From: a virus
Length of the DNA stretch: 59,005 bases
Virus record (IMG/VR): IMGVR_UViG_3300047321_000135
Span: 1 to 59,005 of that record
Strand: one strand, 5' to 3'
The notes under the pieces are model-generated. The model searched no databases, had not been told where the DNA came from, and worked only from the letters and a program-made list of their open reading frames with translations. The translations under genes and the position numbers were made by a program. Every line of letters begins with the position of its first letter. The first letter of the stretch is position 1. Below, piece by piece: positions 3,653 through 54,358 of this stretch.

Positions 3653-4183
3653 TCAGGCGCTCTCCCCCTTCAGTCGCGCGATCTCCCGCGCCTGGCTGAC
3701 GATCGTGGCCTTCAGCTCGTCGACGTCGTCGGAATCGCCCTGCTCGTCCACCAGATCCCGCAGCCGCCGAACCTCGTCTCTCCACGCACGCCCCTCCCTC
3801 TGAGCGGCGTCGCGCTCGCGCTCAGCGCGCCGGAGGTTGGCCCGCAGGGGTCCGCTCGTTTCGTCGTTCCGCTCCGCCAGTTCCTTCCAGGCGTCGGATG
3901 CCGACTTAGCGGCGTCGCGCTCCTGTTCCATGCGTCGGGCGTACTGCCCCAGCTCCGTTGCGTGCTCCTCCGCCGTCTCCTCTCGCTTGATGGCGGCGTC
4001 TGCGCGCTCCTTCTCGCTACGGAGGATGTCGCGGAGCTTCTCGCGCTCGTCGTCCAGAACGCAGAGAACCGCGTCAGCCTCCTCCCGGAAGCCCTCACGG
4101 AGCGACGACCACGTGGTGTGCCACGACAGTCCGGCGTTTTCACACAGCGCCTCAGCGACCCGCGTGCGAAGGTCGTTGCTCAT
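3653..4183 (-). CDS. Hypothetical long coiled-coil protein
   Basis: 176 aa from ATG 4183, which overlaps the stop of the exonuclease gene (ATGA). After about residue 45 it is an almost unbroken charged coiled coil (REKLRDILRSEKERADAAIK and similar). Co-transcribed with the PD-(D/E)XK nuclease, so it might be a partner or structural accessory. No family assigned. Confidence 0.75.
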   Translation of the reverse strand: MSNDLRTRVAEALCENAGLSWHTTWSSLREGFREEADAVLCVLDDEREKLRDILRSEKERADAAIKREETAEEHATELGQYARRMEQERDAAKSASDAWKELAERNDETSGPLRANLRRAERERDAAQREGRAWRDEVRRLRDLVDEQGDSDDVDELKATIVSQAREIARLKGESA

Positions 4184-4983
4184 GCCGCCCGCCTCTGAGT
4201 CCCGGTTTCGGTCTCTCCGCCCTTCGCGATGGCCCTCCCGACGACCCCCTTCTTCCCTTCGCGCTCCCAGTCGAAAACCTGGCGAAGCGCAAGGAACGCG
4301 CGGAAGATGTCCTCGTCGCACGCCACGGGAACAAAGGACCAGCCTTCGGGCCTCACGTGGAGGACGGCTCCGCCAGTCATCTCCGGGACGTCGATGGACT
4401 CCCCGGTCTCCGCAAGAATGATTCGGTCTGCGTAGCGGTAGGCGCTCAACTGCAGCGCCACGGAGTCGTACACGGCCTTACTCGTCTTCCAGTCAAGTAC
4501 AACGACCTCACCGTCCACACGGGCAATGGCGTCGAAGCTGCCGGCGTACAGGTGGGAGTCGCTCCACACCGTCTCCTCCAGGTGGAGGAACTCCGGCTGG
4601 ACCTCGTCCAAGAACTCCTTGAAGTACTGGACGTGCGGCTTGACGTCCGCGTGTACCTGACGCAGCGGGACGCTGTCTCCCCGCGCGAGGCGCTCGAAGT
4701 AGTCGTGAGCCGTCGACCCCAGATCGCTCGCAGCCTTCGTCTTCCGACGGTGCGCGCTCTTCAGGTAGTCGATGGCGCCCTGCGGGTCACGCTCGCACAG
4801 CTTGGAGACGATGTCCCAGTTGTTGACGGCCGCCTCCGCCGACTCCTTCGCCGCCCAGAAGGTGAGGAAATCTTTCGGCAGCATGCCCACGACGCTCGTC
4901 ACGCCCGGCACCTTGATGTGTGCGTCATTCGGGTCGATGTAGAAGCGGCTACCGCCGCGCTTGATCGTTCCTACTCCAGCCAC
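4180..4983 (-). CDS. RecB/Cas4-like PD-(D/E)XK exonuclease
   Basis: 267 aa. The motif GSFDAIARVDGEVVVLDWKT followed by SK and QLSAY (about residues 165-200) is the D...DxK...QxxxY core of RecB/Cas4-family nucleases, which degrade or resect DNA ends in recombination and replication. The start is GTG 4983 because GGAGG sits 5 bases upstream; a longer reading would translate the conserved promoter element itself. It is the first gene after promoter P2 and is followed by an overlapping coiled-coil gene. No iron-sulphur Cys set like that of Cas4 is visible. Confidence 0.85.
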   Translation of the reverse strand: MAGVGTIKRGGSRFYIDPNDAHIKVPGVTSVVGMLPKDFLTFWAAKESAEAAVNNWDIVSKLCERDPQGAIDYLKSAHRRKTKAASDLGSTAHDYFERLARGDSVPLRQVHADVKPHVQYFKEFLDEVQPEFLHLEETVWSDSHLYAGSFDAIARVDGEVVVLDWKTSKAVYDSVALQLSAYRYADRIILAETGESIDVPEMTGGAVLHVRPEGWSFVPVACDEDIFRAFLALRQVFDWEREGKKGVVGRAIAKGGETETGTQRRAA

Positions 4984-5020
4984 TTGGCCTCCACCCTCGT
5001 TGGCGTCTCTCCCTGTCGTC

Positions 5021-5060
5021 TTAGTTATGTGGGGGTGGAGGGCGAATGTTTCACGTGACT
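5021..5060 (-). promoter_or_regulatory. Conserved phage promoter element P2
   Basis: Minus strand CGTGAAACAT, 11 bases, CCCCACATAACT, 38 bases before the exonuclease GTG. It sits about 40 bp downstream (in transcript sense) of the inverted-repeat element at 5101-5200. Confidence 0.78.
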
Positions 5061-5100
5061 TCAAGATCTTTCCTCGTCCGCCGCTCCGGCCAAACCGGTG

Positions 5101-5200
5101 CCAAAATGCAAACTAACCCCCTTTTTTCAAAGCTCTCTAACGCGTGTAGAGAGTTATGAAAATAGGGGGTCAGTTTGTCGTTCTGTCCGCAGTTTGGCGC
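5101..5200. repeat. Nested inverted-repeat element, copy 1
   Basis: Outer arms CAAACTAACCCCCTTTTTT (5109-5127) and AATAGGGGGTCAGTTTG (5161-5177) flank a perfect inner pair, CTCTCTA (5133-5139) and TAGAGAG (5147-5153), around ACGCGTG. AGTTTGGC closes the element. The DNA is clearly richer in A+T than its surroundings. An obviously related copy lies at 35822-35920. Confidence 0.8.
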
Positions 5201-5236: not shown

Positions 5237-5971
5237 TCAGCCCCGTGAGCTGGTCTTTTGTGTCAGCTTGCGGAGCGAGGCTAGCTTCCGCTCGATGGCT
5301 GCCAGCTCCACGTCAAGGGCGGCTCGTTGCCCGTCGGTCATGTGCCGCTTGATGACGTTGCGGTCCAGTTGTCCCAGGATGTCCTTCGCCACCACAGCCA
5401 AGCGCAGATGGTCGGCCGTAGCCCGGACTGCCTTGCCGGCTTCCTCCCCTGTCGGCTCAGCCTTGCTCCGGCTTGGCTTCGGGGTGGACTCCTTGACGGC
5501 CGTCGACACTCTTGCAGCCTTGATGATCGACGAGTTCACCTTACGGCTGTCCTGTAGCCGCTCCAATGGGGACGTCGGCTGTAGGTCGTTCGCTTCCAGC
5601 TCACGTGGCGTCAGGTGGCGTCGCAGCAAGTTGCCAATGTGCCACCGGACGGACGCCTGTAGTGCGCTAGTGCTGTCGGCTGGGATGCCGGCACTTCGGT
5701 ACATGTCCGCCACCACCTGCCGGTACTCGTGGCTGGAGCCGCGCATGTCTTGGTGCTTGACGCGTAGCGCGACGACAACGACCGCGATGTTCCTGACGAG
5801 CGTGGTGGCAGCACCTTGAATGCGATGGTGCTCGCGGGCGTATGCCGCGCCACGGGCGACGAGTGCCGCCTCCCCCTCGTGCGCAAGGTCGTCCAGCTCC
5901 AGCGCGGGGAGATCGTCCACGCTGACGGGGACTGGCTCCCCTGTGCTCTTCGTGGCGATTTCTCGGCTCAT
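5237..5971 (-). CDS. Hypothetical protein, possible DNA-binding regulator
   Basis: 244 aa from the second ATG (5971), 5 bases after GAGAGG. The middle section is helical (HEYRQVVADMYRSAGIPADS, then ASVRWHIGNLLRRHLTPREL) and the last 100 residues are rich in K, R and A. The arrangement looks like nucleic-acid binding to me but no named domain is certain. A GTACCGC ... GCGGTAC pair lies in its upstream region and the nested inverted repeat lies just past its stop, both possible targets. Function unknown. Confidence 0.78.
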   Translation of the reverse strand: MSREIATKSTGEPVPVSVDDLPALELDDLAHEGEAALVARGAAYAREHHRIQGAATTLVRNIAVVVVALRVKHQDMRGSSHEYRQVVADMYRSAGIPADSTSALQASVRWHIGNLLRRHLTPRELEANDLQPTSPLERLQDSRKVNSSIIKAARVSTAVKESTPKPSRSKAEPTGEEAGKAVRATADHLRLAVVAKDILGQLDRNVIKRHMTDGQRAALDVELAAIERKLASLRKLTQKTSSRG

Positions 5972-6006
5972 CATGACCTCTCAGCGTCGGCGTAGGCGCG
6001 CATAGA

Positions 6007-6061: not shown

Positions 6062-6700
6062 TCACCGGGAGACGTCGGGTGCTACGAAATCCTGACGGCA
6101 TACGGCGCAGATGATGGGGCCCTTTGCGGCTACCGTCTGCGAGACCCGGATCTTACGTGGTTCGGCGCACCCGCACTGGAGTGTCAGACGATCCGGCGTC
6201 CTCGTCCGGGGAGCCTCCGGCACTCGTAGGTGCGGGAGGACTTGTGGGATCGCTTCGGAAAGAGTCTTCAGGTCCGTCGCGTACTGCGCCCTGGAGGCGT
6301 CCGTCAGCTCCGGTGCTCCGTAGCCACGACCGCTGGCAGACGGCTGCCTATGCGCCGGCCATTCGAGCCCTATCTCCACGGCTGCAGCCCGGTAGGAAGC
6401 GTTGTGGTAGGTGCCCCGACGGCTTGTGTCCTGGACGTCCCGCACCCAACAGAGCACGTGAGCAGCCTCGTGGAGGACTGCCTCCAGCACAGCGTCAGGC
6501 CCGTCGCGCAGGGTGTCCGCGGAGACGACGAGGCCCGTCACGACCTCCCCCTCCCGCGTCCACCGCTCCGGGCCATGCTTAGACGGGGGCGGGGTTGGGA
6601 CGAGAGACATCCGCATAGGCGGTAGATCGACATGGGTGGACCGTAGATGTTCCCATAGCGCATCCAGCGCCTGAAGGAGCGGCCCGGGTGAGGTCGGCAT
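6062..6700 (-). CDS. SprT-like zinc metallopeptidase
   Basis: 212 aa. LEAVLHEAAHVLCW (about residues 75-88) is the HExxH zinc-protease motif of the SprT family, and a CxC ... CxxC zinc ribbon closes the protein (QCGCAEP, ICAVCRQ). SprT/Spartan proteins degrade proteins bound or crosslinked to DNA. ATG 6700 is chosen because a -10 box (TACATT) ends 7 bases upstream with an 18-bp spacer to TTGTGT, so the message would be leaderless; no ribosome site exists. A type B palindrome overlies this promoter, so it is probably repressed in the lysogen. Confidence 0.78.
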   Translation of the reverse strand: MPTSPGPLLQALDALWEHLRSTHVDLPPMRMSLVPTPPPSKHGPERWTREGEVVTGLVVSADTLRDGPDAVLEAVLHEAAHVLCWVRDVQDTSRRGTYHNASYRAAAVEIGLEWPAHRQPSASGRGYGAPELTDASRAQYATDLKTLSEAIPQVLPHLRVPEAPRTRTPDRLTLQCGCAEPRKIRVSQTVAAKGPIICAVCRQDFVAPDVSR

Positions 6701-6740
6701 GTCGGGGAATGTACCTTGCATGTGTCGGTCGACACAACGA
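6700..6740 (-). promoter_or_regulatory. Promoter with type B palindrome for the SprT-like gene
   Basis: -35 TTGTGT (6732-6737), 18-bp spacer, -10 TACATT (6708-6713), then 7 bases to the ATG. The palindrome TGTGTCGGTCGACACA (6721-6736) covers the -35 and spacer. Confidence 0.7.
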
Positions 6741-6752
6741 TGCGTGTAGCCG

Positions 6753-6772
6753 TCCGTAAGTCGACTCGCGGA
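6753..6772. promoter_or_regulatory. Type A palindromic operator A3
   Basis: TCCGTAAGTCGACTCGCGGA, 16 bp upstream of the type B promoter of the SprT-like gene. Confidence 0.78.
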
Positions 6773-6794
6773 CGTTGTGCAGACCTCTGAAACG

Positions 6795-6835
6795 AAAAAA
6801 GGCCCCGTACCTGCCGTTACGGCGGGTACGGGGCC
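6795..6835 (-). terminator. Strong intrinsic terminator after the HNH gene
   Basis: An 11-bp GGCCCCGTACC / GGTACGGGGCC stem followed on the minus strand by TTTTTT. Confidence 0.9.
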
Positions 6836-6892
6836 TTGTCTGGGAGGCAAACTTTTACCTAAAGCTAAGGTGCGCTTAAGGTACGGCGCCGT

Positions 6893-16618: not shown

Positions 16619-16755
16619 TGGTCGCCCTCTTCCACTCCGGGTTCACCACGTCGTGGCATGAGATCCGGAACCGTCGGACGGGCGATGGGAGGCGCGGTGT
16701 AGACCGGAGCCTCCCCGCCCTGATCAGGAACGGGGTCTAGCTGTTCGTCGGGCAC
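16609..16755 (-). CDS. Small Pro-rich tail protein
   Basis: 48 aa from GTG 16755 (GGAAGG 8 bases upstream), coupled to the tape-measure stop (TAGTG) and overlapping the next ATG. Sequence VPDEQLDPVPDQGGEAPVYT then PPIARPTVPDLMP: disordered, Pro-rich. The frame fills the only gap in the tail operon, which supports it as a gene. Role unknown. Confidence 0.6.
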   Translation of the reverse strand: MPDEQLDPVPDQGGEAPVYTAPPIARPTVPDLMPRRGEPGVEEGDQWA

Positions 16756-19700
16756 TACACCCACCTTCCTGTGTTGATGGCCGAAGCCGTGGATTCCTCG
16801 CGCGCGACAACCTCTGTGCGCACGATGTCGGTGATTTCGCGGTCCCCGACGAAGACGCGGACGTCGGCGTGAACCGTCGTTGCGCCTCCACCCTGGCCCG
16901 CGGGGAGGCTTGCCAGGTCTGCGGCCTGACGTGCCATCGCACGCGTGTCACCGTTGCTGTAGACCTGCGCAGGACTCATGAACCGGACCAACTCCGGTCC
17001 CTGCTCGCCGACCATCGCCAGCTCCCCAACGCTGGGGAATCCGCCTGCCCAGTAGCCGGATGGCTTCTTCGCCAGTGCGGGAGCGAATCCGTAGTGCGAC
17101 GTGAAGAGCGGGTCATTCCAGCCCCGTGCGCTCTTACCGACGACCACTCCTTGCCCGCCCCTGGACTCGACATTGACGCCGGCCAGGGTGCCGGCCGTGT
17201 GGCCCACGCCTGCGTTGGTGACGCCGATTTGGAAAGGCGAACGCAGGTTGCGCACCCATCCTGACGGGGCGTTGTTCCCCTGGAAGGAGAACGTCGACCA
17301 CAGGCGTCCCTTCGGGACTTGCCCCAGGATCACCTTCTGAATGCTGCTCATGAACCCGCTGCAGTCGAACGACGGGTTACCCGCTCCGCCCCACTGGTAC
17401 GGCATGCCGGCCTTCGAGCGGGCCCACATCAGGGCTCTCCCGACGCCACCGGATGCGGACGTGCCGCTACCGTCGCCGCCAAAAATGGAGTTCTTCAGGC
17501 TCTTCAGCATCCCGATGGGAATTTCCGTCGTCAGCTTCCCCCAGTCGGAGGAGGCGAACTTCCGCATCTGCTCACGCGCCCAACCCATTGCGGAGTTGAA
17601 CAGCTTGTCAGGGTTGGTGAGGAAATCCGCAGTGCTCTTCGCTCCGCTGACGACAGCGCCACCAGCGGACTTCAGCCCACCCAGGATGCTGCCGAAAATG
17701 CCACCGTCGGCGAACGCAGGCATTCCGTTGTTGATCGCACGCTGAACGCCACTGACGCCGCCTGAACGGGCAGCTGCGTTCCACTCGTTGATCTTGTCGG
17801 CGCCAATTGCTCGCGTCCACTCCGGGCGCATGATGGCTTCACCGCCACCGACGGCGATTACGCGATCGTCACGGCCCGGGGAGTAGCCGGACATGATGCC
17901 GCCAGTGTGGAATCCTTCCAGGCTCATCTTCTTCAGCTTGTCGGCCCCGGTGATCTTCGCCACCTGGTTCCACAGGGGGACCACGCCTCCGTTGTACACG
18001 TGGGAAATTATGAACCGGACAGGCTTTTTCGTGATTTCCTGCAGCTGATCCCAGTGCTTCTTGATGTTGTCCTTCGACAGCTTGAACGCTGCCGCGACGA
18101 GGTCGACGCCTTCCTTGATCTTCTCGAAAGGCGGCTTGATCGCCTTCTCCCACAACCACTTTGCCTTGTCACCTATCCAACCGAAGACAGGCTTGACGAC
18201 CTTGTCCCAGAGCCACTTGGCGACCGTACCGAGGGCGTCGAGTTCCTTCTTAGCCTCCCTGAACGCCGGCTTGATGGCCTTGTCGTAGACCCATTTGGCC
18301 TTGTCGCCGATCCAGCCGAAGACAGGCTTGATGACCTTGTCCCACAGCAGAGTTGCTGCGGCACCGATCAGCTTGAACGTCGGACCGATCGCCTTCTCCC
18401 ACAGCCACATCGCGACCTTCCCCAGCGCCTTGATGGCAAGCCACGTCGGCAGGAGGAAGAGCGTAATCAGCGCGGTGATCAGGAACTGAGCGGCCTCACC
18501 GATGAACTTGAATGCCGGGCCAATAGCGTTGTTCCAGAGCCACATCGCCACCGTTCCGATGGCTTTCAGCCCGGTCCAGATGGCTGAGAACACCGGCTTC
18601 AGGACGTTATCCCAGAGGAACAGTGCCGCGAACTTGATCGCATCCCACACGGCGATTACGGCCGTCCGGAACCAATCCCAGTGGTTCCACGCGTACATGA
18701 TTCCCGCGACGAGCAGCACGAGAGCCGCAATGATGATCGTGATGACCGCGACAACGGGGTTCATCTCGAACGCCAGATTCGCTTCCCAGATCGCAGCCGC
18801 CCACCCCTGTGTGATGAGCGTCCCGAGGATTACTGCGCCGTTGTAGACCGCCATCCCGATAGCGGCGGCAGCCATGATCAGCTTGATAGCCTTCGTGGCG
18901 GCGTAGAATCCCCAGAGGAGTTGCACAACTCCGGGCATGTTCTCTGCCAGCCACTTGATGCCGTCGATGATCGGCCCCAAGACTTCGAACATGGATTCCG
19001 ACAGCGGAGCCAGCGCCTTAGAGACCTCCAGCACCGACGAGAGAATCTTGCCGATGAAGTCCGCGAGTCCGGGCGCCGTGTCCTTCACGTACTGGAGGAA
19101 CTTCTCGAAGTCTGGGGAGCCCTTAAGGCTCTTGCCCCACTTGGCGAATCGTTCCGTGATCTTGTCGGACTTCTTCGCAATTCCGTCCATGTGCGGGAGG
19201 AACGCGTCGATGATTCCGGCGATGCCGGTGATGATGTTTCCGAACGTCTTGCCCATCCCGATGATGGCGGGCTTGACGCTCTGGTCAAGATCCTTCTTGA
19301 AGCCTTGCCAGAATGGCGCCTTGACTGCCTTTGACGCCTTGTCCCAAAGGGTTTCGATGGCGTCCGCAGCACCCTGAACAAGCGGCGTCAGAGCAGGAAG
19401 AGAGTTCTTAGCCGAGTCGACTCCGCGCGTAAAGAGCGGCAATACCTGCGGCTGTAGCGACTTCTGCCAGTCATCGAATGCCTTCTTCAACCCTCTCGGA
19501 CCGGCGATGGCGTCGAACAGTTCGCGCTGAGGCTTGGTCAGCTTCGCCAGCGCCTTCTGATACTCGTCGGCCTTCGTGATCGCCTTCGTCGTCGTGCTGA
19601 TGCCCGACAGGCGAGCGGACGCCAGCCCGCGCTCTGCGGAAGCGACCGACTCCGCGGCCGACACCTGCGTCTCAGCGGCGTTCTGTACGGCGTCAGCCAG

Positions 19701-21194
19701 GCCACGCTGAGCGTCGGCAACGGTCTGTGCGGCCTCGGTCTGCGCGCGAGCTGCTGCCCGCTGAGCGTCCGCGACGGCCTTCGTGTTGTCCATGACGTCG
19801 CGCTGTGCGTCGGCCAGGCGCTGCGTTGCCGTCTTCACAGCGTCGGAGCCTTCTACGCCCGCCTTCTTCTGCGCAGCCGCAGACTTCTGCAGTTCCGTGT
19901 AACTCTGCTTCTGCTCCTTCGCGGCCTGCTGTGCTTGGTCGAACGCCAGCTGCGCGGCCTCCTTCTGGAGGTCCGTGGCCATGGGGTCGGCCAGCGTGGC
20001 GTTCAGGTCTAGCTGCGCCTGCTGGACGCGGAGAGTTGCCTCCCGCTGGTCCAGGGCGCCGTCAATGAGCTGATCGTTCAACGCCTTCAGCTGCCGGGCA
20101 GCGTCAGCGCGAGCCTGCGTCAGATCCTGCTCAGCCTGGCGTGCGGTGCGCTGTGCGTCGGAGAGCGACCGTTCCGCGCGCTCCACGGCGTCAGCAGCTT
20201 GCCGGCGCTGGTCCGCGGCACGCTGGACGGCCTGAGCGACGGCGCGTTCTGCATCCTCCACCTGGCGGTTAGCCTGCGAGATGGAGCGCGCTGCAGCCCG
20301 GTGAGCGGAGGCCAGGGACGCCTGTGCGCCGGCCATCTGGAGGGATCGCTGGGCGGCCTGGACAGAGGCACGAGCGCCGGTATTGGTGGCGCTCGTCGCC
20401 TCATTCTCTGCCGCCGTTTTCGCCGTCATGGCCGCCGTTACGCCCTTGATGGCGGGGATGGCCGCAAGACCAAGCGCGCCGACGCCAGCAGCTGCAGCCG
20501 TCGCCATAGCAGCGATGCCACCAAGACCAGCCGCCAGGACCGGGCCAAGCGGGATCGCCACAAGGGCGGCAGCCTGGATCGTGAGCGCCATGAGAGCGCT
20601 ACTCGCGCCGGATCCGTCGACGTCGACGTCAATCGTGATCCGCTTCCGGTCCACGGCGTCGATCTCTTCGCGGATCGCAGCCAGCGCCACACGGGCGGCA
20701 GCCGTGTCCGCGCGAACCGCAACGTTTGGATGCTCAGCCCCGAGCCGCCTTAGCTGCTCTTCGATCCGGGTGACCTCAGCGCGAGCGGCCATGGCGTCGA
20801 CGTCGATGCCGATGCGCTTGTTGGAGAGCTGCTCCAGTTTGGCGCGGAGTCGTGCGAGTTCCGCGTCCACGCCTGTGTCACCGAGTCGGACATCCAACTT
20901 CGGCATAGCCTTGAAGGCAACTTCGAGCTTGCGCCTCAGACTGCGCGCGAACGCGCCACCTGCGTTGTCGCCCTGTCGTCCCGCGGCTGCTGCGCCGGCT
21001 CGCCCACCCTGGTTAATAGCCTGTGGGATGGCGATCACGATGTTGTTCGAGATCGCCTGCCCCATGCGCTTGCCCGCCTCTTCGCCGACCTTGTCAGCGA
21101 TGGGGAGGACAAGCGCCTTCAGCTTCGTGTGAAACTGCGGAATGACGGGCACGACGTCAACCGCCGCACCACCAACAATGTCCAGGTCAGCCAT
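16755..21194 (-). CDS. Tape measure protein with C-terminal NlpC/P60 peptidase
   Basis: 1479 aa from ATG 21194 (GGAGG 4 bases upstream; the preceding GTG is too close). It sets tail length, roughly 200 nm by the usual 0.15 nm per residue. Residues about 250-560 are a long Ala/Gln-rich coiled coil, then several hydrophobic helices and Trp-rich AKWLWDK repeats (about 890-1050). Near residues 1265-1370, MPYQWGGAGNPSFDCSG with a following GHTAG gives the Cys and His of an NlpC/P60 peptidase, which would cut peptidoglycan during DNA entry. Its start overlaps the frameshifted chaperone stop. Confidence 0.93.
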   Translation of the reverse strand: MADLDIVGGAAVDVVPVIPQFHTKLKALVLPIADKVGEEAGKRMGQAISNNIVIAIPQAINQGGRAGAAAAGRQGDNAGGAFARSLRRKLEVAFKAMPKLDVRLGDTGVDAELARLRAKLEQLSNKRIGIDVDAMAARAEVTRIEEQLRRLGAEHPNVAVRADTAAARVALAAIREEIDAVDRKRITIDVDVDGSGASSALMALTIQAAALVAIPLGPVLAAGLGGIAAMATAAAAGVGALGLAAIPAIKGVTAAMTAKTAAENEATSATNTGARASVQAAQRSLQMAGAQASLASAHRAAARSISQANRQVEDAERAVAQAVQRAADQRRQAADAVERAERSLSDAQRTARQAEQDLTQARADAARQLKALNDQLIDGALDQREATLRVQQAQLDLNATLADPMATDLQKEAAQLAFDQAQQAAKEQKQSYTELQKSAAAQKKAGVEGSDAVKTATQRLADAQRDVMDNTKAVADAQRAAARAQTEAAQTVADAQRGLADAVQNAAETQVSAAESVASAERGLASARLSGISTTTKAITKADEYQKALAKLTKPQRELFDAIAGPRGLKKAFDDWQKSLQPQVLPLFTRGVDSAKNSLPALTPLVQGAADAIETLWDKASKAVKAPFWQGFKKDLDQSVKPAIIGMGKTFGNIITGIAGIIDAFLPHMDGIAKKSDKITERFAKWGKSLKGSPDFEKFLQYVKDTAPGLADFIGKILSSVLEVSKALAPLSESMFEVLGPIIDGIKWLAENMPGVVQLLWGFYAATKAIKLIMAAAAIGMAVYNGAVILGTLITQGWAAAIWEANLAFEMNPVVAVITIIIAALVLLVAGIMYAWNHWDWFRTAVIAVWDAIKFAALFLWDNVLKPVFSAIWTGLKAIGTVAMWLWNNAIGPAFKFIGEAAQFLITALITLFLLPTWLAIKALGKVAMWLWEKAIGPTFKLIGAAATLLWDKVIKPVFGWIGDKAKWVYDKAIKPAFREAKKELDALGTVAKWLWDKVVKPVFGWIGDKAKWLWEKAIKPPFEKIKEGVDLVAAAFKLSKDNIKKHWDQLQEITKKPVRFIISHVYNGGVVPLWNQVAKITGADKLKKMSLEGFHTGGIMSGYSPGRDDRVIAVGGGEAIMRPEWTRAIGADKINEWNAAARSGGVSGVQRAINNGMPAFADGGIFGSILGGLKSAGGAVVSGAKSTADFLTNPDKLFNSAMGWAREQMRKFASSDWGKLTTEIPIGMLKSLKNSIFGGDGSGTSASGGVGRALMWARSKAGMPYQWGGAGNPSFDCSGFMSSIQKVILGQVPKGRLWSTFSFQGNNAPSGWVRNLRSPFQIGVTNAGVGHTAGTLAGVNVESRGGQGVVVGKSARGWNDPLFTSHYGFAPALAKKPSGYWAGGFPSVGELAMVGEQGPELVRFMSPAQVYSNGDTRAMARQAADLASLPAGQGGGATTVHADVRVFVGDREITDIVRTEVVAREESTASAINTGRWV

Positions 21195-21645
21195 CACGCC
21201 TCCTTCTGCGTCTGATTTCTCAGCCGCGGGTCAAGGGCGCGGCGCTGCTCGTCCGTCAGTCCCTTCCGGGCTGCAGACTTCGGGGGAATCCCGGGGCGTG
21301 GTGTCGGGTGAAATTCGCCAGGTTTCCCGCCGGCGATAGCGATAGCGGCGTGCCGGCTGAGTGTGACCTCGTCTTTAAGTGCCGCAACCAGCATCTCCAA
21401 ACTGCTCCACGGGGCCTTGTCCGGTCGGTACTCGCCGCTAGGAGCCGGTCCGTCGTCCTCCGGCTGTGCGTTCCGGAGAGCGGTTCTCGTCGCCGACTCC
21501 GGCGGAAGTCCCTGGATCAGGACACGCAGCCGACGAATCGACATGCGTCCGCGGTACACGTCCAGGAGGTCGATACCGCGGAACGCGAGGTCCGCTTCTA
21601 GCGCTTCCGCGTGCTCCTGGAGGACGTCCCACGTCCACCAGACTT
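21194..21645 (-). CDS. Tail assembly chaperone, -1 frameshift extension (gpT-like)
   Basis: This frame has no start of its own with a ribosome site. It is reached by a -1 shift from the 21598-21918 gene at G GGA AAG. The extension continues KVWWTWDVLQEHAEALEADL and ends KEA at 21194, overlapping the tape-measure ATG. It is the gpGT arrangement of siphophages, in which the fusion helps polymerise the tube on the tape measure. Seen: slippery heptamer, open frame and position. Inferred: efficiency. Confidence 0.82.
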
Positions 21646-35588: not shown

Positions 35589-35754
35589 CTCCCCCGCCGT
35601 CCGTCCGTCCCCTGGACGTCAGCGGGAAGCCTTGGACGACCGGAGCGCTCAACCGCGCTCTACCGGAGGAGAGTACGGGAGCACAGGAGCGCTGCCGGCC
35701 GTCGGAGGGAAGCGGGCGCCGCGCCATTCGCCGGCGCCGCCACTCTTCCCTCAT

Positions 35755-35780
35755 CTTAGTTATGTGGGGCATGTTTCACG
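35755..35780 (-). promoter_or_regulatory. Shortened conserved promoter element P5
   Basis: Minus strand CGTGAAACAT, one base, then CCCCACATAACT. It is identical to P1-P4 except that 10 bp, about one helical turn, are missing between the boxes. It points at the tRNA cluster. Confidence 0.65.
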
Positions 35781-35821
35781 GGAGTGATCTTGGTCCGCCT
35801 CCCCCTCCGGACAGGCCTGGT

Positions 35822-35920
35822 CCAAACTGCCAAACTAACCCCCTTTTTCACTTCTTCTCTAACGCGCGTAGCACTAAGTAGAAATAAGGGTCTGGTTTGT
35901 CATTCTGGCCAGTTTGGCAC
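35822..35920. repeat. Nested inverted-repeat element, copy 2
   Basis: Aligns along about 100 bases with 5101-5200: CCAAACTGC, AAACTAACCCCCTTTTT, CTCTAACGCG, AATA-GGGT, GTTTGTC-TTCTGNCC, AGTTTGGC. Here the outer TGCCAAACT / AGTTTGGCA arms are perfect while the inner TAGAGAG arm has decayed. It lies between the integrase stop and P5. Confidence 0.8.
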
Positions 35921-36105: not shown

Positions 36106-37746
36106 TTAGAGGCTCTCTTGGTGGACCACATCGTCCAATGCGTCCTGCTCCGGATCGACGTGCGTCCCGATGTCGAACGTCAACCGCTCTTCCGCGGGCG
36201 CTCTCCAGCGCTCCGGAGGATGCACAGTGATCCTCGCCCCCGCCTCGTGGAGCATCTGACGTCGCGCCAGGGGGTCGCGCGTGGCATTCCAGTCGTCGGC
36301 CCATGTGGTGTCCAGTTCGACGATCTGTTCCCGAGCCGGCTTCACCGGTTCCGCCTGCAGCTGCTCCAGCCGGTCGGAGCGTGCCTGCAGCTGCGTCATG
36401 ACGCCGTCTGCTGCCGGTCCACGGAGCTGCGCCAGGCGCGCGGACAGTTCCGCCACGTCGGCCGTCAGGTCGGCGATCTCAGCGCGGTTGTCGACGCCCG
36501 CGACGCGGATGACCTGCGTGCGACGGAAAGGCCCCATGTGCGCCAGGAACTGCGTCTCCGCGTACTCCAGGACCGGGCCGGCGTAGATGCTGAGAGCGGG
36601 TACGCCCTTCGCGTGCTCCTTACCGATGCACCGGAAGATTTCCTTCTTCACCCCCGTCGGCTTGGCCTTCGCTCCCCGTCCGCCCTTCCGCTCCGTGTAC
36701 CAGCTGATGTACATGTTCTGCCCGCAGACGCCGCACACGAGGACGCCCAGGAGCGGGTGGCCGTCATTGCGACGAGGCGCGCGAGGATCCAGCGTTAGCC
36801 GCTTCAGGGCCTCCTGCAATTGGTGCCAGGTGTCGTCGTCGATCAGCGGTTCGCCCTGCAGAACGGGCGCGCCTTCGTCGTTGCGGACCACGGTGCCGTC
36901 CTTCTTGACAAGGTGACCGCGCATGACGGGAGAAAGAAGCATGTCGCGGACAACGGTCAGCTGCCATGTGCTTTCCGGGTCAGCGTCCCGCGGAGGCGTG
37001 GCGAGTGCCGCCCGATGGTTCTTCGGCGTAATCGCCTCCATTGCCTCCAGCCAACGCATGATGTCGCTGTAGTTCTTGCCGGCAATAGCACGGGCCACCA
37101 TGCCGCGTCGGATATCCGCGGTCGACTTGGCCGGCTCGTCTTTGTCGACGTGTTCGAAAAGCCACCAACCCTCGTTGCCGTCAGGGAACATCAGCCGTCC
37201 GGGTGCGTAGCCGTATGGCACGACTCCCCCGGGCCACCGTCCCATTGACTGGAGATGTGCGGCAGCTCCTTGGTTCCGCTCCATGATGGTCTGGCCTTCG
37301 AGCTGAGCGGCGAAGGCGAGAATCAACATGATGAGTTCGGACATGGGAGAACTGAAGTCCAGCTCCAGTTTGTCGCCCCCGGGCCCGGACGCGAACACGA
37401 GGCGCTTTCCGTGCTTCTTCGCGTAGCGCCCCAGATCCGCCATGTCGGCCATGGAGCGAACCGCGCGGTCCATGCGCTGCCAGATCATGACGTCCCACTC
37501 GTCGGGACGGTCCAGCCAGTAGGAGAGTTCCTCGCGCTCCCACGGAGTCGTCTTCAGTGCCGAGACGTCAAGGTCTCGCGCCCATCCGATGAACTCCCCA
37601 CCCATGCGGTTGCCCGTGGTGGTTACGGTGGCTTCCTGGACCTCTGGTGACGTCGAAGCGTCGGTGTAGCGACTGATCCGTAGCGCCCCAACGATGCGGA
37701 GTCGGGCGTCTGTTGCCGGTGCGCGCCGTGGCGCGGATGGAGTCAT
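36106..37746 (-). CDS. int: Large serine recombinase (integrase)
   Basis: 546 aa. The N-terminal resolvase domain has ALRISRYTDAS with the candidate nucleophile Ser25, MIWQRMDRAVRS with its Arg, and FSSPMSELIMLILAFAAQLE leading to the long helix. The recombinase domain follows (HLQSMGRWPGGVVPYGYAPG). A zinc ribbon, CGVCGQNMY … FRCIGKE, lies around residues 340-385. A coiled coil (IADLTADVAELSARLAQLRG) around 430-470 is where RDFs act. It inserts phage attP into host attB. The leaderless ATG has TATCAT 7 bases upstream. The gp3-like gene at the window ends is the likely RDF partner. Confidence 0.95.
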   Translation of the reverse strand: MTPSAPRRAPATDARLRIVGALRISRYTDASTSPEVQEATVTTTGNRMGGEFIGWARDLDVSALKTTPWEREELSYWLDRPDEWDVMIWQRMDRAVRSMADMADLGRYAKKHGKRLVFASGPGGDKLELDFSSPMSELIMLILAFAAQLEGQTIMERNQGAAAHLQSMGRWPGGVVPYGYAPGRLMFPDGNEGWWLFEHVDKDEPAKSTADIRRGMVARAIAGKNYSDIMRWLEAMEAITPKNHRAALATPPRDADPESTWQLTVVRDMLLSPVMRGHLVKKDGTVVRNDEGAPVLQGEPLIDDDTWHQLQEALKRLTLDPRAPRRNDGHPLLGVLVCGVCGQNMYISWYTERKGGRGAKAKPTGVKKEIFRCIGKEHAKGVPALSIYAGPVLEYAETQFLAHMGPFRRTQVIRVAGVDNRAEIADLTADVAELSARLAQLRGPAADGVMTQLQARSDRLEQLQAEPVKPAREQIVELDTTWADDWNATRDPLARRQMLHEAGARITVHPPERWRAPAEERLTFDIGTHVDPEQDALDDVVHQESL

Positions 37747-44994: not shown

Positions 44995-45074
44995 ATATCT
45001 TTCTCCTCCTACGGCCTGCCTCATCAGCGCGGGTAGGCCAGTCCCCGCGGACGCCCCGGAGGGCGTTTCGGCTA

Positions 45075-47243: not shown

Positions 47244-48020
47244 TTACGCGGCGATGTTGTGGCGGCCGGCCACGGCGCGGGCGTTGTCGATTCCGCGGGT
47301 GCGGAGGACGCGAAGGGGAGCCTTCTTGACCTGGAGGTCCGCGCTTGCCTCGTCCTCCGTCAGACGCTGCATGCCGATGCCGTAGAAGGCGCGGAGTGCG
47401 AATGCCTGGCGCTGCGGAATCTCCGTCAGCAGCCAGCGGGCCAGGTCGCGGCGCGCGGTGGTGTCGGTGAAATCCGACGAGGCGTCGGGGATGAGATCAG
47501 AGAGCAGGATGCTTCCGTCCTCCCCCACGGCGCCCCGGACGACATCCTGTGGGGCGTCCAGACACTGCGTCTCCGCAATTGCTTCACGAATTGCCACGAA
47601 CGCTTCACGCGACATCCGTCGACGGGGGTCAGTGTCGCTGGATACGATCATCCAAGCGCCTTCGACGTCGCCTTCCGTGTCCCAGAGTGCCCGCCGCACA
47701 CGCAGTGCCGCGGACGCATCCACGGAGAGCTGCGTCGTGGAGCCGAGCCACTCCTCCGCAACGGCGCGGCGGATGGCGTTGTATGCGTAGGTGGCAAGCG
47801 TGGCGGCGCTGGCCTCGGTGTCGTAGGAGCGGGTGTTCTGGAGGAGTACCGCGCGTGCCTCCTGGATCAGGTCGTCGTTCTGCTCCCGCGTTGCACCCGG
47901 CGCCGTGGTCCGGATGATCCGCCACATCATCGGCTCGTATGCGCTGATGATCTCCCACATGGCGTCCTGGTCGCCGGCCTGCGCTGCCTGGATCTGCTCG
48001 GTGGTGACGGTGGTCGACAT
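47244..48020 (-). CDS. Phage sigma-70-like factor
   Basis: 258 aa. Residues about 10-90 match sigma region 2: AAQAGDQDAMWEIISAYEPM, NDDLIQEARAVLLQNTRSYD, TYAYNAIRRAVAEEW (the DDLIQEA core and the melting helix). Region 4 lies at about 205-250: FALRAFYGIGMQRLTEDEAS, with RTRGIDNAR as the recognition helix. Region 1 and most of region 3 are short or missing. It is expressed from its own copy of the conserved promoter (P4), which fits autoactivation. It probably directs host RNA polymerase to P1-P4. Confidence 0.85.
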   Translation of the reverse strand: MSTTVTTEQIQAAQAGDQDAMWEIISAYEPMMWRIIRTTAPGATREQNDDLIQEARAVLLQNTRSYDTEASAATLATYAYNAIRRAVAEEWLGSTTQLSVDASAALRVRRALWDTEGDVEGAWMIVSSDTDPRRRMSREAFVAIREAIAETQCLDAPQDVVRGAVGEDGSILLSDLIPDASSDFTDTTARRDLARWLLTEIPQRQAFALRAFYGIGMQRLTEDEASADLQVKKAPLRVLRTRGIDNARAVAGRHNIAA

Positions 48021-51390: not shown

Positions 51391-51878
51391 TTGAGGCTCC
51401 CCCATCGCTGACCGCTGCTGATTTTCGTGATGGCCTGACGCTTAACGTCGAACTGGTCCGATATCCACTGATGCGTTCGGCCTGCCGCAAGCCACGCTCG
51501 CACCTGGCGAACGTCGTCGTCCGTCAGCTTCGCGCACCCGTTCTGCATGCCGCACGTGACGGTCCCGTGCCCCTCCTTGTGGCTCGCGTTCTCGACGGGG
51601 TCGGACCACTTCAGGTTGGACAGGCGGTTGTCGGTCTTCACACCGTTCAGGTGCGCACCTTCGGGCCGGTCGGCCGTAGGTTCACCGCGGAAGGCGGTCA
51701 GGACTATCCGGTGCACATACCGCTGAGACTTCCGCCCCTTCGCACACAGGGTCACCGCGTGGTAGCCATCTCCAGAGTTGCGGGGCTTTAGCACCCACCC
51801 GCGGATCCCACGGACGCGCCCCATGTCACTCACGGAGTAGCCCGGCCACCCCTCAACCTCTCTCCACTGCTCACCCAT
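51387..51878 (-). CDS. HNH homing endonuclease (NUMOD4-like)
   Basis: 163 aa from ATG 51878 (GGAGG 4 bases upstream, overlapping the primase stop). WREVEGWPGYSVSDMGRVRG is a NUMOD4 start. VHRIVLTAFRGE then EGAHLNGVKTDNRLSNLKWS is the HNH_3 core (H, N, N). KRQAITKISSGQRWGSLK closes with a DNA-binding helix. It separates the primase-helicase and polymerase genes, a typical homing target. Confidence 0.9.
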   Translation of the reverse strand: MGEQWREVEGWPGYSVSDMGRVRGIRGWVLKPRNSGDGYHAVTLCAKGRKSQRYVHRIVLTAFRGEPTADRPEGAHLNGVKTDNRLSNLKWSDPVENASHKEGHGTVTCGMQNGCAKLTDDDVRQVRAWLAAGRTHQWISDQFDVKRQAITKISSGQRWGSLK

Positions 51879-54358
51879 CACGCCTCCTCCCCAAAGATGT
51901 TGGTCGGACCGGCCGGTACCTCTGCCTCGTCGATGCCCTCCGCAAGTCGACTCGCGCGCTCCTTTTCCTCATCAGTCAGGAGGCGAAGCCCGTCGAAGCC
52001 CCAAGCGCCACGCTTCTTGGCCTTCTTGAACCCGCGGCTCTCAAGCTCCACCGCCAACGCCCAACCCGAGAGCCGTTCCTTACGGTCAAGTCCGGCGTCT
52101 TCCGCCCATTCCGCGTACGCACGCCTGACAGCCATGGGAGCCACTCGCGCGCCGTCCTCGCGGATGGTGCACGCGGTCAGGAACTCCTGGAGGCGGTCCT
52201 CCGACTCCTTGTAGTCCTGCGTGGCAGTGGCGACGGAGGACGGCTCTCCAAGTCCCTGCGCGTACCACTCCACGGCGCCTGCGACGGCCCACGCGAGGAT
52301 CCCCTCCGACTCCGCCCGCAGCTTGGAGGGGAGGGCGGTGTCCTTGTTGCCCAGCGCGTAGGAGAACGTCGCGTCGAAAGGAATCAACTTGACCCGCCTC
52401 CACGTCCCCTCGTCCTGCGACAGGATCGCGGGCTTGAAGTTGCCGGCCACCAGGAGCAGGAACGACGGCACGTAGGTAAAGGGGTTCTGGTTCAGGAAGC
52501 GGCACGTGATCGGGTCGCCGCCCGTGAGCTGCTTCACGAGTGCCTCCGCCAGTCGGCTGTACTTCTCCGTCTCGCTCGCCGTTACGAGCCGCGCACCGCG
52601 CAAGGAGGCCAGCTCCGGGGACGCCTGGCCGACGTTCACCGATTTCTCGAAGGTGTGGAACTGCGTCGCCTGCGTAACACCCTTGAACACGTGGATCAGC
52701 GCGTCCAGGAATACGCTCTTCCCGTTGCTCCCCTGCCCGTGCATGAAGGCGAAGCAGTGCTCAGACGTCGATCCCGTGCAGCCGTAGCCGACGAGCCGGC
52801 GCATGAATCCGGGGAGATCCGGATGCCCGGGGAACACTTCCGTCAGGAACTGATTCCACCGCTCCGCGGGTGCATCAGGATGGTAGGCGACGTCAAGACG
52901 CTTCGTGATCATGTCCGCCGGGGTGTGCGGGTGCAGCTTCCCCGTGCGGAGGTTGATGGTGCCGTTCTCCACACTCAACAGCTCGTGGTTCGCGTCGAAG
53001 TCGCTAGCCTTTGCCGGCACACCGGGGACGCTGGGCAGCTCCTTCATTACGGCGTCGATGCTGCGGTTCGTCAGGGCCTTCAGCGCAAGCTTCCGGTCCG
53101 CGTCCTCTCCCGTGGAGAGCAGTTCCGCGCCCAGCAGGTGCAGGGACTCGCGGACTGCGTTCGCGTCCTGCCGCCACACGCGGCCGTCCCAGACGAGGAA
53201 ACCGAGCCCCGCCGCGTACCGGACTCCGCCCCCCTTGCGCGCCATGAAGTCACGGAGTCGGACCGCAACGCCGACGTCGGAGTTGTCGAACAGCTGACGC
53301 GACGAGACGTCCATCAGCTCCAGGGCTGCATCAGTCGCGGGCATGTCGACCTCCTCCTTCGGCGATGTGGTGGTGGCTGGCTTCGGCTGCTCCAGGGCAA
53401 CGACAGGAGCGGATCGGACTGCGGCATGCAGTGCTGCCGGGAAGGCGTCGGTGTCACGCTCCCGCCAGTCGGTCAGGTCGTCGCCCTCGTGCGGGATCTC
53501 CAGGCGACGAACCATGACGCCGGCGCGGACGAGTGCCTCCGCCAGGGAGTCGGTAAAGCCAGCTCCCGCGCGGTCCCTGTCGCCGCAGATGACGACGTCC
53601 AGGTCCCGCAGCCCGTCGGCCAGTTCGGCGACAAGGGCGGCGTTACGGGCGAGACCAGCCCCGCGGACAGCCACGGCGTCGTAGCCGGCACCGACGGCGC
53701 TAAGTGCGTCGCCCGGTCCTTCGGTGATCAGGATGGTGTCGAAGTTCGCGCCGGAACGAAGGACGCCGTACTTCGCCCACGTCCGCCCCTCCACGTTGGC
53801 CAGGGAGACCCAGCGGGCAGGGCACTTCGTCGACAGGTCGCGGCCCTGCAGCCCGCGAATGACGCCGTCGAAGCCAGCGAGCGGCACCGTCACCCGCGGA
53901 TACCGGGTGAAGCCACGGCTGAGCCAGGGCTGAGGGCGGGCACCCGGCGCGCAGTAACCGACGTTCAGATCTTCGGCCAACTCCGGCGTCACGCCGAAGC
54001 GGTCGAAGATGTAGAAGGCGGCTTCGGAGTCCGGCGCCAGGGCGGCCGACGTCTCGTCGACGAACATCCGCAGACCGGCGATCTCCCCCGGGCCGATGGA
54101 CTCCGGCGCCTTCGCGCTGATGGTGCGCGCGCCCTGGCCGTCGACGTTGTACAGGTCCGGCCCCGTCAGGTTGAGCTTCCGCAGGATCTCCGCCCGGTCA
54201 CAGCCTGTACGGCAGACCATCAGAAGCATGCCGTCCGACTTGAGCGTCAACTTCAGCGACGGGTGATTCTGGTCGTTGTGCGCGGGGCAGAGGGCAAGGT
54301 AGCCGTCGTGGTCCTCCTTCACTCCGCTCAGTCGCCCCAGAATGTCCGTGAGCTTCAA
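51878..54358 (-). CDS. Toprim primase - SF3/D5 helicase
   Basis: 826 aa. Residues 15-60: CPAHNDQNHPSLKL … CRTGC, a CHC2-type zinc finger. TOPRIM around 190-260: DTILITEGPGDALSAVGAGY and VVICGDRDRAGAG. Helicase of SF3/D5 type around 520-640: AFMHGQGSNGKSVFLDALIH (Walker A), FLLLVAGNFKPAI and DEGTWRRVKLIPFD. It primes DNA and unwinds it, feeding the neighbouring polymerase. Operator A10 lies inside its 3' coding end. Confidence 0.92.
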   Translation of the reverse strand: MKLTDILGRLSGVKEDHDGYLALCPAHNDQNHPSLKLTLKSDGMLLMVCRTGCDRAEILRKLNLTGPDLYNVDGQGARTISAKAPESIGPGEIAGLRMFVDETSAALAPDSEAAFYIFDRFGVTPELAEDLNVGYCAPGARPQPWLSRGFTRYPRVTVPLAGFDGVIRGLQGRDLSTKCPARWVSLANVEGRTWAKYGVLRSGANFDTILITEGPGDALSAVGAGYDAVAVRGAGLARNAALVAELADGLRDLDVVICGDRDRAGAGFTDSLAEALVRAGVMVRRLEIPHEGDDLTDWRERDTDAFPAALHAAVRSAPVVALEQPKPATTTSPKEEVDMPATDAALELMDVSSRQLFDNSDVGVAVRLRDFMARKGGGVRYAAGLGFLVWDGRVWRQDANAVRESLHLLGAELLSTGEDADRKLALKALTNRSIDAVMKELPSVPGVPAKASDFDANHELLSVENGTINLRTGKLHPHTPADMITKRLDVAYHPDAPAERWNQFLTEVFPGHPDLPGFMRRLVGYGCTGSTSEHCFAFMHGQGSNGKSVFLDALIHVFKGVTQATQFHTFEKSVNVGQASPELASLRGARLVTASETEKYSRLAEALVKQLTGGDPITCRFLNQNPFTYVPSFLLLVAGNFKPAILSQDEGTWRRVKLIPFDATFSYALGNKDTALPSKLRAESEGILAWAVAGAVEWYAQGLGEPSSVATATQDYKESEDRLQEFLTACTIREDGARVAPMAVRRAYAEWAEDAGLDRKERLSGWALAVELESRGFKKAKKRGAWGFDGLRLLTDEEKERASRLAEGIDEAEVPAGPTNIFGEEA
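51939..51958. promoter_or_regulatory. Type A operator A10, inside coding sequence
   Basis: TCCGCAAGTCGACTCGCGCG, with several mismatches, within codons for RASRLAEG of the primase-helicase. Confidence 0.6.

Follow-up and report, generated by a model that had tools for sequence, protein, structure and literature searches.

The window, that is, the whole stretch of 59,005 nucleotides analysed here, is a 59-kb virus record of the phiC31/Samy kind and belongs to a Streptomyces virus. The gene content identified in it includes a serine integrase, a terminase, a portal protein, a family A DNA polymerase, and a D5/SF3 primase-helicase with DUF5906, Toprim, and D5_N domains; the minus strand carries all of the genes identified. 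The exonuclease gene lies at 4-5 kb and the primase gene at 52-54 kb, whereas the two are about 11 kb apart in Samy, and this gene order suggests that the record represents a circle opened at an arbitrary point. A long open reading frame at 16755-21197, probably the tape measure gene, contains repeats spaced at 57 bp and 135 bp (18095-18548). The genes that border or may act on the elements described below are as follows.

4180-5064, minus strand: exonuclease gene (ORF limits as listed), a homologue of phiC31 gp1 and the first gene downstream of copy A
5237-5974, minus strand: gene upstream of copy A, 47% identical to the annotated putative immunity repressor of Samy
36106-37746, minus strand: serine integrase; copy B lies just beyond its 3' end
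51878-54358, minus strand: primase-helicase of the gp9a type (Toprim, D5_N, and SF3, from domain matches), the proposed initiator
51881-52405, minus strand: C-terminal part of the primase as modelled, a predicted winged helix matching the P4 origin-binding domain, the proposed iteron reader

Two origin-like elements, termed copies A and B, occupy the gaps next to the exonuclease and integrase genes, each with a promoter-like element beside it.

5090-5197, no strand: copy A, an origin-like element with inverted iteron arms around an A+T-rich core
5090-5114, plus strand: left arm of A, with CCAAAC at 5090-5095, CCAAA at 5101-5105, and CAAACT at 5109-5114
5115-5171, no strand: core of A, with A+T-rich tracts and a central ACGCGT at 5140-5145
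5172-5197, minus strand: right arm of A, inverted, with AGTTTG at 5172-5177 and AGTTTGG at 5191-5197
35822-35917, no strand: copy B, a second origin-like element in the same orientation as A
35822-35836, plus strand: left arm of B, with CCAAACT at 35822-35828 and 35830-35836, an 8-bp period
35894-35917, minus strand: right arm of B, inverted, with GGTTTG at 35894-35899 and AGTTTGG at 35911-35917
5024-5055, minus strand: promoter-like element beside A, with boxes at 5024-5034 and 5046-5055; the window has five such elements
35759-35780, minus strand: promoter-like element beside B, with an inter-box gap 10 bp shorter

In a genome-wide self-BLASTN comparison, positions 5016-5198 paired with 35751-35918 (188 columns, 70.7% identity, E = 3.4e-12); among the long-range direct repeats of the window, A/B ranks second. 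Local alignment of the two gaps scored 108, whereas 100 dinucleotide shuffles gave at most 29. The A+T content of both copies falls in the top 0.1-0.2% of the window. These results bear out the original prediction that homologous, A+T-rich, co-oriented copies lie at these places. The nested inverted repeat that it ascribed to both is very strong in A, with RNA fold z-scores of -8.5 and -9.9 for the two strands, but weak in B, where they are -1.3 and -2.1. It had also proposed a duplicated module of about 170 bp; homology does extend into the promoter-like element, yet such a module fuses an element present twice with a motif present five times. The two-box promoter-like element occurs at 337, 5024, 8781, 35759, and 48053, with an inter-box gap of 11 bases in four copies and of 1 base at 35759, and one of these elements lies just ahead of a sigma-factor-like gene (47244-48020).

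To place the pair in a wider context, we drew on 231 phage records that cover at least 80% of the primase; 22 named phages chosen for diversity, together with the window, made up a set of 23 genomes from phages of Streptomyces, Arthrobacter, and Microbacterium hosts, four Arthrobacter and two Microbacterium phages among them. Comparison with related phages recovered the pair as a long-range repeat in 21 of these 23 genomes, all with a full-length gp9a-type primase-helicase and the window included; it ranked first among long-range direct repeats in 17 of the 23, and in 20 when only repeats of 80 columns or more were counted; RemusLoopin and Shady had weak matches in place only. Within a genome, the copies of the 21 detected pairs are 68-88% identical, and in nine phages the two gaps, aligned with one another phage by phage, scored 45-143, while their shuffles peaked at 25-31. 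It was this comparison of the two gaps inside each genome that revealed lineages beyond close relatives, whereas scans with the window's own sequence reached close relatives only, namely, Samy, IMG/VR records, and Streptomyces genomes. Such scans returned the window type in 7 of 10 viral stretches and in 2 of 6 genome stretches, the latter two from Streptomyces and the remaining 4 from other bacteria, outside the comparison. Nine records, picked by element matches so that presence of the element in all nine is given, were each searched whole: five carry two full copies (Samy, G001, G003, G004, and G007), three carry a single copy (the fragments G002, of 15 kb, and G006, of 35 kb, and also G005, of 55.8 kb), and G008 has one copy plus a cut piece at the contig start. 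In phiC31, a different but likewise duplicated element stands at the same two positions, and the phiC31-type element is also present in Shawty, Samora, Lilbooboo, Vash, and Euratis. Among 37 loci, a script flagged 21, of which 12 were judged to be true pairs on reading of the printed sequences (L123, L125, L127, L131, L133, L134, L137, L141, L280, L281, L282, and L285); the other flags resemble short repeats of a coding or promoter-like nature, and B may fall past the flank in many of the loci. A sliding palindrome detector found 18 of the 23 known A elements.

What the phages share is the placement of A upstream of an early operon that includes the Cas4-like exonuclease, and of B on the downstream side of the primase and polymerase genes. 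In Samy, A is flanked by the putative repressor and the exonuclease, and B by the integrase and the tRNAs with one small gene intervening, much as in the window. The claim that the two copies bracket the late region fits the window as far as it was annotated, with a minority of the ORFs covered at 8.8-27 kb, but does not extend to the Arthrobacter and Microbacterium phages read: in Tutumahutu (Arthrobacter), B follows the integrase and is in turn followed by 20 annotated genes over about 7 kb to the genome end, and in QMacho (Microbacterium), B lies about 5.4 kb ahead of the tRNAs, and the stretch read (18.5-41.7 kb) bears no annotated integrase or repressor. The arc from B to A spans 0.47-0.65 of the genome (median 0.53, 23 genomes), a range that rules out antipodal, half-genome spacing as a strict rule. 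The detrended minimum of GC skew falls at A in the window; over 19 genomes, there was no consistent skew step at A or B.

The pair thus appears to accompany the replication module, and not integration or the late promoter, because it occurs with the full-length primase, also where no serine integrase was matched, and was not among the six best hits in either CrimD or R4. In QMacho and Katzastrophic, two Microbacterium phages in which the pair is present, there was no match to the three serine integrases searched. In CrimD, in which 45% of gp9a is matched and gp1 is not, no A/B-like two-copy element was among the six best hits; several other strong long-range repeats do occur in this phage, with one kind present at no fewer than 4 places, and long-range repeats as such are therefore not peculiar to the gp9a group. 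In R4, which has no primase match, none of the six best hits was a repeat at least 15 kb apart. Separately, each of the 23 genomes has a matching homologue of phiC31 gp3, the recombination directionality factor (RDF), even those that gave no serine integrase match (6092-6841 in the QMacho locus, L122, and likewise in related loci). A gp3 homologue without a matched serine integrase fits a second role in replication; two RDFs have replication roles according to the available part of PMC5311408.

As a group, the 46 elements examined consist of short repeats in opposing orientation around an A+T-rich core. Repeated runs at a lag of 8 numbered 403, compared to 65.5 ± 17.8 in shuffles (z = 19), with lesser excesses at lag 9 (z = 5.9) and at lags 4, 11, and 13 (z = 3-4); several elements had been hand-trimmed to remove the promoter before this count. 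A run of 5 at lag 8 is present in 24 of the 46 elements, where random genomic sets average 4.8 with a maximum of 13; the other 22, window A included, have no such run. The same measure at lag 9 shows no excess (11 versus 10.9 in random genomic pieces), and window A has none there either. By A+T content, 42 of 46 elements rank among the top 5% of their genome, and inverted arms reach p ≤ 0.05 against random own-genome pieces in 32 of 46 only. For RemusLoopin and Shady, element ends were placed manually on the basis of their weak matches before the skew, fold, concerted-change, and periodicity analyses.

Element sequence differs greatly between lineages. Nevertheless, for 29 of 38 elements the partner copy in the own genome is a better match than any of the other 36, and since most elements resemble their own partner best, the two sites appear to be kept alike within a genome even as lineages diverge from one another, which is what reading of both by a single protein would lead one to expect. 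Seven of the 38 are closest to the same-position element of another phage and two to an other-position one.

Iteron change tracks residues 681 to the end of the primase-helicase and, more weakly, residues 531-680, with relatedness allowed for; it does not track the N-terminal half, the exonuclease, or gp3. In the 23 phages, with polymerase and terminase removed, the partial correlation of element similarity was best with the primase C-terminal segment (r = 0.30), followed by the SF3 segment (0.24), and was about 0 for the exonuclease, gp3, and the primase N-terminus. Raw correlations were positive for other proteins too (exonuclease 0.41, gp3 0.33, polymerase 0.48, and terminase 0.35), and the C-terminal part is singled out by the partial correlations only. 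A larger set comprised 149 loci with a candidate element, which in some of them (L144, L146, and L152, for instance) is probably wrongly identified; all four proteins were available for 144, and 124 were left after removal of near-identical primases, yielding 684 pairs with primase residues 1-680 at least 70% identical, which cover 114 loci. With exonuclease, gp3, polymerase, and primase 1-680 removed, the partial r was 0.23 for residues 681-740 and 0.19 for 741 to the end (permutation p = 0.001). The SF3 segment, residues 531-680, also correlates (0.13, p = 0.001); outside residues 531 to the end, r was 0.06 or less, with p = 0.01 at an r near zero for residues 366-530 and no significant partial correlation for residues 1-365 (124 loci, 684 pairs).

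The same dependence is seen in pairs in which primase 1-680 is at least 80% identical: median arm similarity was 17.5 for the 40 pairs with C-terminal parts below 70% identity versus 42 for the 105 pairs at 80% or above (permutation p = 0.001). Mean identities in the low and high sets were 0.83 and 0.86 for primase 1-680, 0.81 and 0.88 for the polymerase, 0.84 and 0.87 for the exonuclease, and 0.80 in both for gp3. The clearest case is that of DrSierra and L125, the C-terminal parts of which are 89% identical and which have an AGTGAAG-type iteron in both copies, whereas Tutumahutu, Reedo, Tweety19, and L124 have an ATGACG-type iteron and C-terminal parts only 55-63% identical to those of DrSierra and L125, at 84-90% identity over primase 1-680; identity between DrSierra and Tutumahutu, 0.98-1.00 across the SF3 region, drops to 0.46 around residues 700-750. 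At least two counter-cases were noted: L128 has GTGACG-type iterons though its C-terminal part is nearer to DrSierra (0.73) than to Tutumahutu (0.58), and L149 and L237 share arms (58) at a C-terminal identity of 0.70.

By fold, the C-terminal domain is predicted to be a winged helix of the origin-binding kind. AlphaFold2 (AF2), supplied with an 83-sequence alignment, modelled the C-terminal segment of the window as a winged helix (mean pLDDT 82, pTM 0.62; block means 94-98 over residues 71-150 of the segment), and the P4 origin-binding domain (1ka8) matched the model with Z = 7.4 and an rmsd of 2.9 over 78 residues, although a Z of 7-8 by itself can mean a common fold. The best structural matches, both above 1ka8, were RFX domains (Z = 9.3 and 8.4) and the primase tail of ASFV (7.6); 1ka8 was not among the best 50 Foldseek matches listed. 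The ASFV tail has itself been likened to the P4 domain and to Rfx1 (PMC10516667, available part), and P4 alpha binds its origin repeats via a winged helix domain (PMC4234260, available part). The window's own C-terminal segment matched no Pfam family, and 51 of the 83 alignment members matched Pox_D5 at E values up to 1 (best 5e-7).

We consider it likely that A and B are recognition sites of the SF3 primase-helicase of the phage (51878-54358, phiC31 gp9a family) and serve replication as origins; they are probably a pair of origins, or an origin plus a partner site. The C-terminal winged helix would bind the iterons of about 8 bp in both inverted arms, helicase rings would assemble face to face on the A+T-rich core and melt it, theta replication would start at the melted core, and the family A DNA polymerase of the phage would extend. 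Both copies may fire, or one may act as a helper or fork-stalling site. The latter arrangement, in which one copy is the origin and the other a crr-like cis helper or a late origin or fork-stalling site for the same protein, is a variant within this reading that we put somewhat short of an even chance. It has precedents in P4, where ori and crr, separated by about 4.5-4.7 kb, have type 1 repeats in common, and in Bacillus phage SPP1, with two like-organised origins and a proposal that collision of a fork with gp38-bound oriR triggers concatemer formation (PMC6316719 and PMC3485210, both in part); against it, we noticed no difference in kind between A and B, and the copies change together.

Among the functions suggested originally (replication origin, recombination target, structured RNA, or terminator), an origin is favoured and the other three are less likely. 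A further alternative, that the elements are upstream activator sites at which a phage regulator, possibly the primase itself, switches on the adjacent promoters, seems unlikely: a promoter-like repeat is near both copies in the window and, to judge from short stretches in common, also in phiBT1, Vash, and Dubu, but three of the five copies of this repeat in the window have no element, B of QMacho is not adjacent to tRNAs and late genes, and the part of the protein that tracks the iterons belongs to a helicase. We regard a transcription terminator or structured RNA as quite improbable. Copy A and the Arthrobacter elements fold strongly, the sense-strand fold z is -2 or below in 27 of 38 elements (not in 11; 60 shuffles each), and arm mismatches lean mildly toward G.T (36 versus 26 A.C in the 46 elements; 18 versus 11 in the 14 of window type). 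However, inverted arms fold whatever their use, the z-scores span -12 to about 0 with B weak, the wobble lean is small, no Rfam family matched the elements at the gathering score, and phiC31 has separate terminator-like hairpins, as read from its sequence, ahead of both elements. Recombination or module exchange between the copies is hardly credible, for although a large block is flanked by direct repeats in each genome, copies so diverged within a genome and mostly unlike between lineages would be poor exchange substrates, the pair persists where no serine integrase was matched, and attP of phiBT1 lies upstream of int.

Read as origins, the elements resemble several known systems in part. The Sfi21-type replication modules of Streptococcus thermophilus, which have an iteron origin, encode an SF3 primase homologue of low similarity (E = 3e-7 over 36% of phiC31 gp9a). 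P4 likewise has 8-bp repeats in inverted arms around a core (here a feature of the group) in two separate regions, a homologous SF3 helicase (phiC31 gp9a matched P4 alpha with E = 2e-7 over 42%), and a C-terminal winged helix in alpha, as modelled for the window primase. The annotation of the P4 record describes crr as two 8-bp repeats, 35 bp, two inverted ones, plus a fifth, in 120-bp units. Unlike here, ori and crr of P4 differ in layout, crr having two adjacent repeats, whereas the present phages carry two whole homologous elements some 15-32 kb apart on the record; the iteron sequences differ as well. SPP1, according to the available part of PMC6316719, also has two repeat-bearing, A+T-rich sites, oriL and oriR, in one phage, but differs from the gp9a phages in its initiator gp38 with a DnaB-type helicase, in the position of oriL inside gene 38, and in its direct repeats. 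The plasmid pRN1 combines a primase-SF3-winged-helix protein with a stem-loop origin, but has one stem-loop without iterons and a primase of the archaeo-eukaryotic type (PMC4234260, in part). No such element is named in the available portions of PMC11302927, PMC5311408, PMC6316719, PMC7302621, PMC5513430, PMC4234260, and PMC10516667. We found no described origin for phiC31 or its relatives in the literature searched (the phiC31 genome paper was outside its scope, and we claim no priority).

For phiC31 and its relatives, which are in wide use in genetics, the analysis puts forward specific candidates for the replication origin and for the initiator domain. DrSierra and L125, set against Tutumahutu, Reedo, and Tweety19, form natural domain-swap pairs that make protein-DNA specificity directly testable. 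The paired layout also prompts one to ask what makes some phages retain two origins of similar kind. A tentative answer, which we think more apt to be wrong than right, is that two origins of the same specificity, evolving in concert across this actinobacterial phage group, are both needed: helicase assemblies on A and B might cooperate across the circle, either by bridging or with one firing while the other traps the fork and yields concatemers, and winged-helix swaps with both sites rewritten might amount to a natural code between recognition domain and iteron.

The early region of the window also contains a match to the Rfam type II hammerhead ribozyme, above the gathering score (45010-45073, minus strand, 42.8 bits, E = 1.9e-5). 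A near-palindrome of the TCCGTRAGTCGACTYRCGGA form recurs in at least 9 copies, at 390, 6753, 42223, 43073, 45427, 46110, 47055, 48203, and 51939, and these might conceivably be repressor operators.
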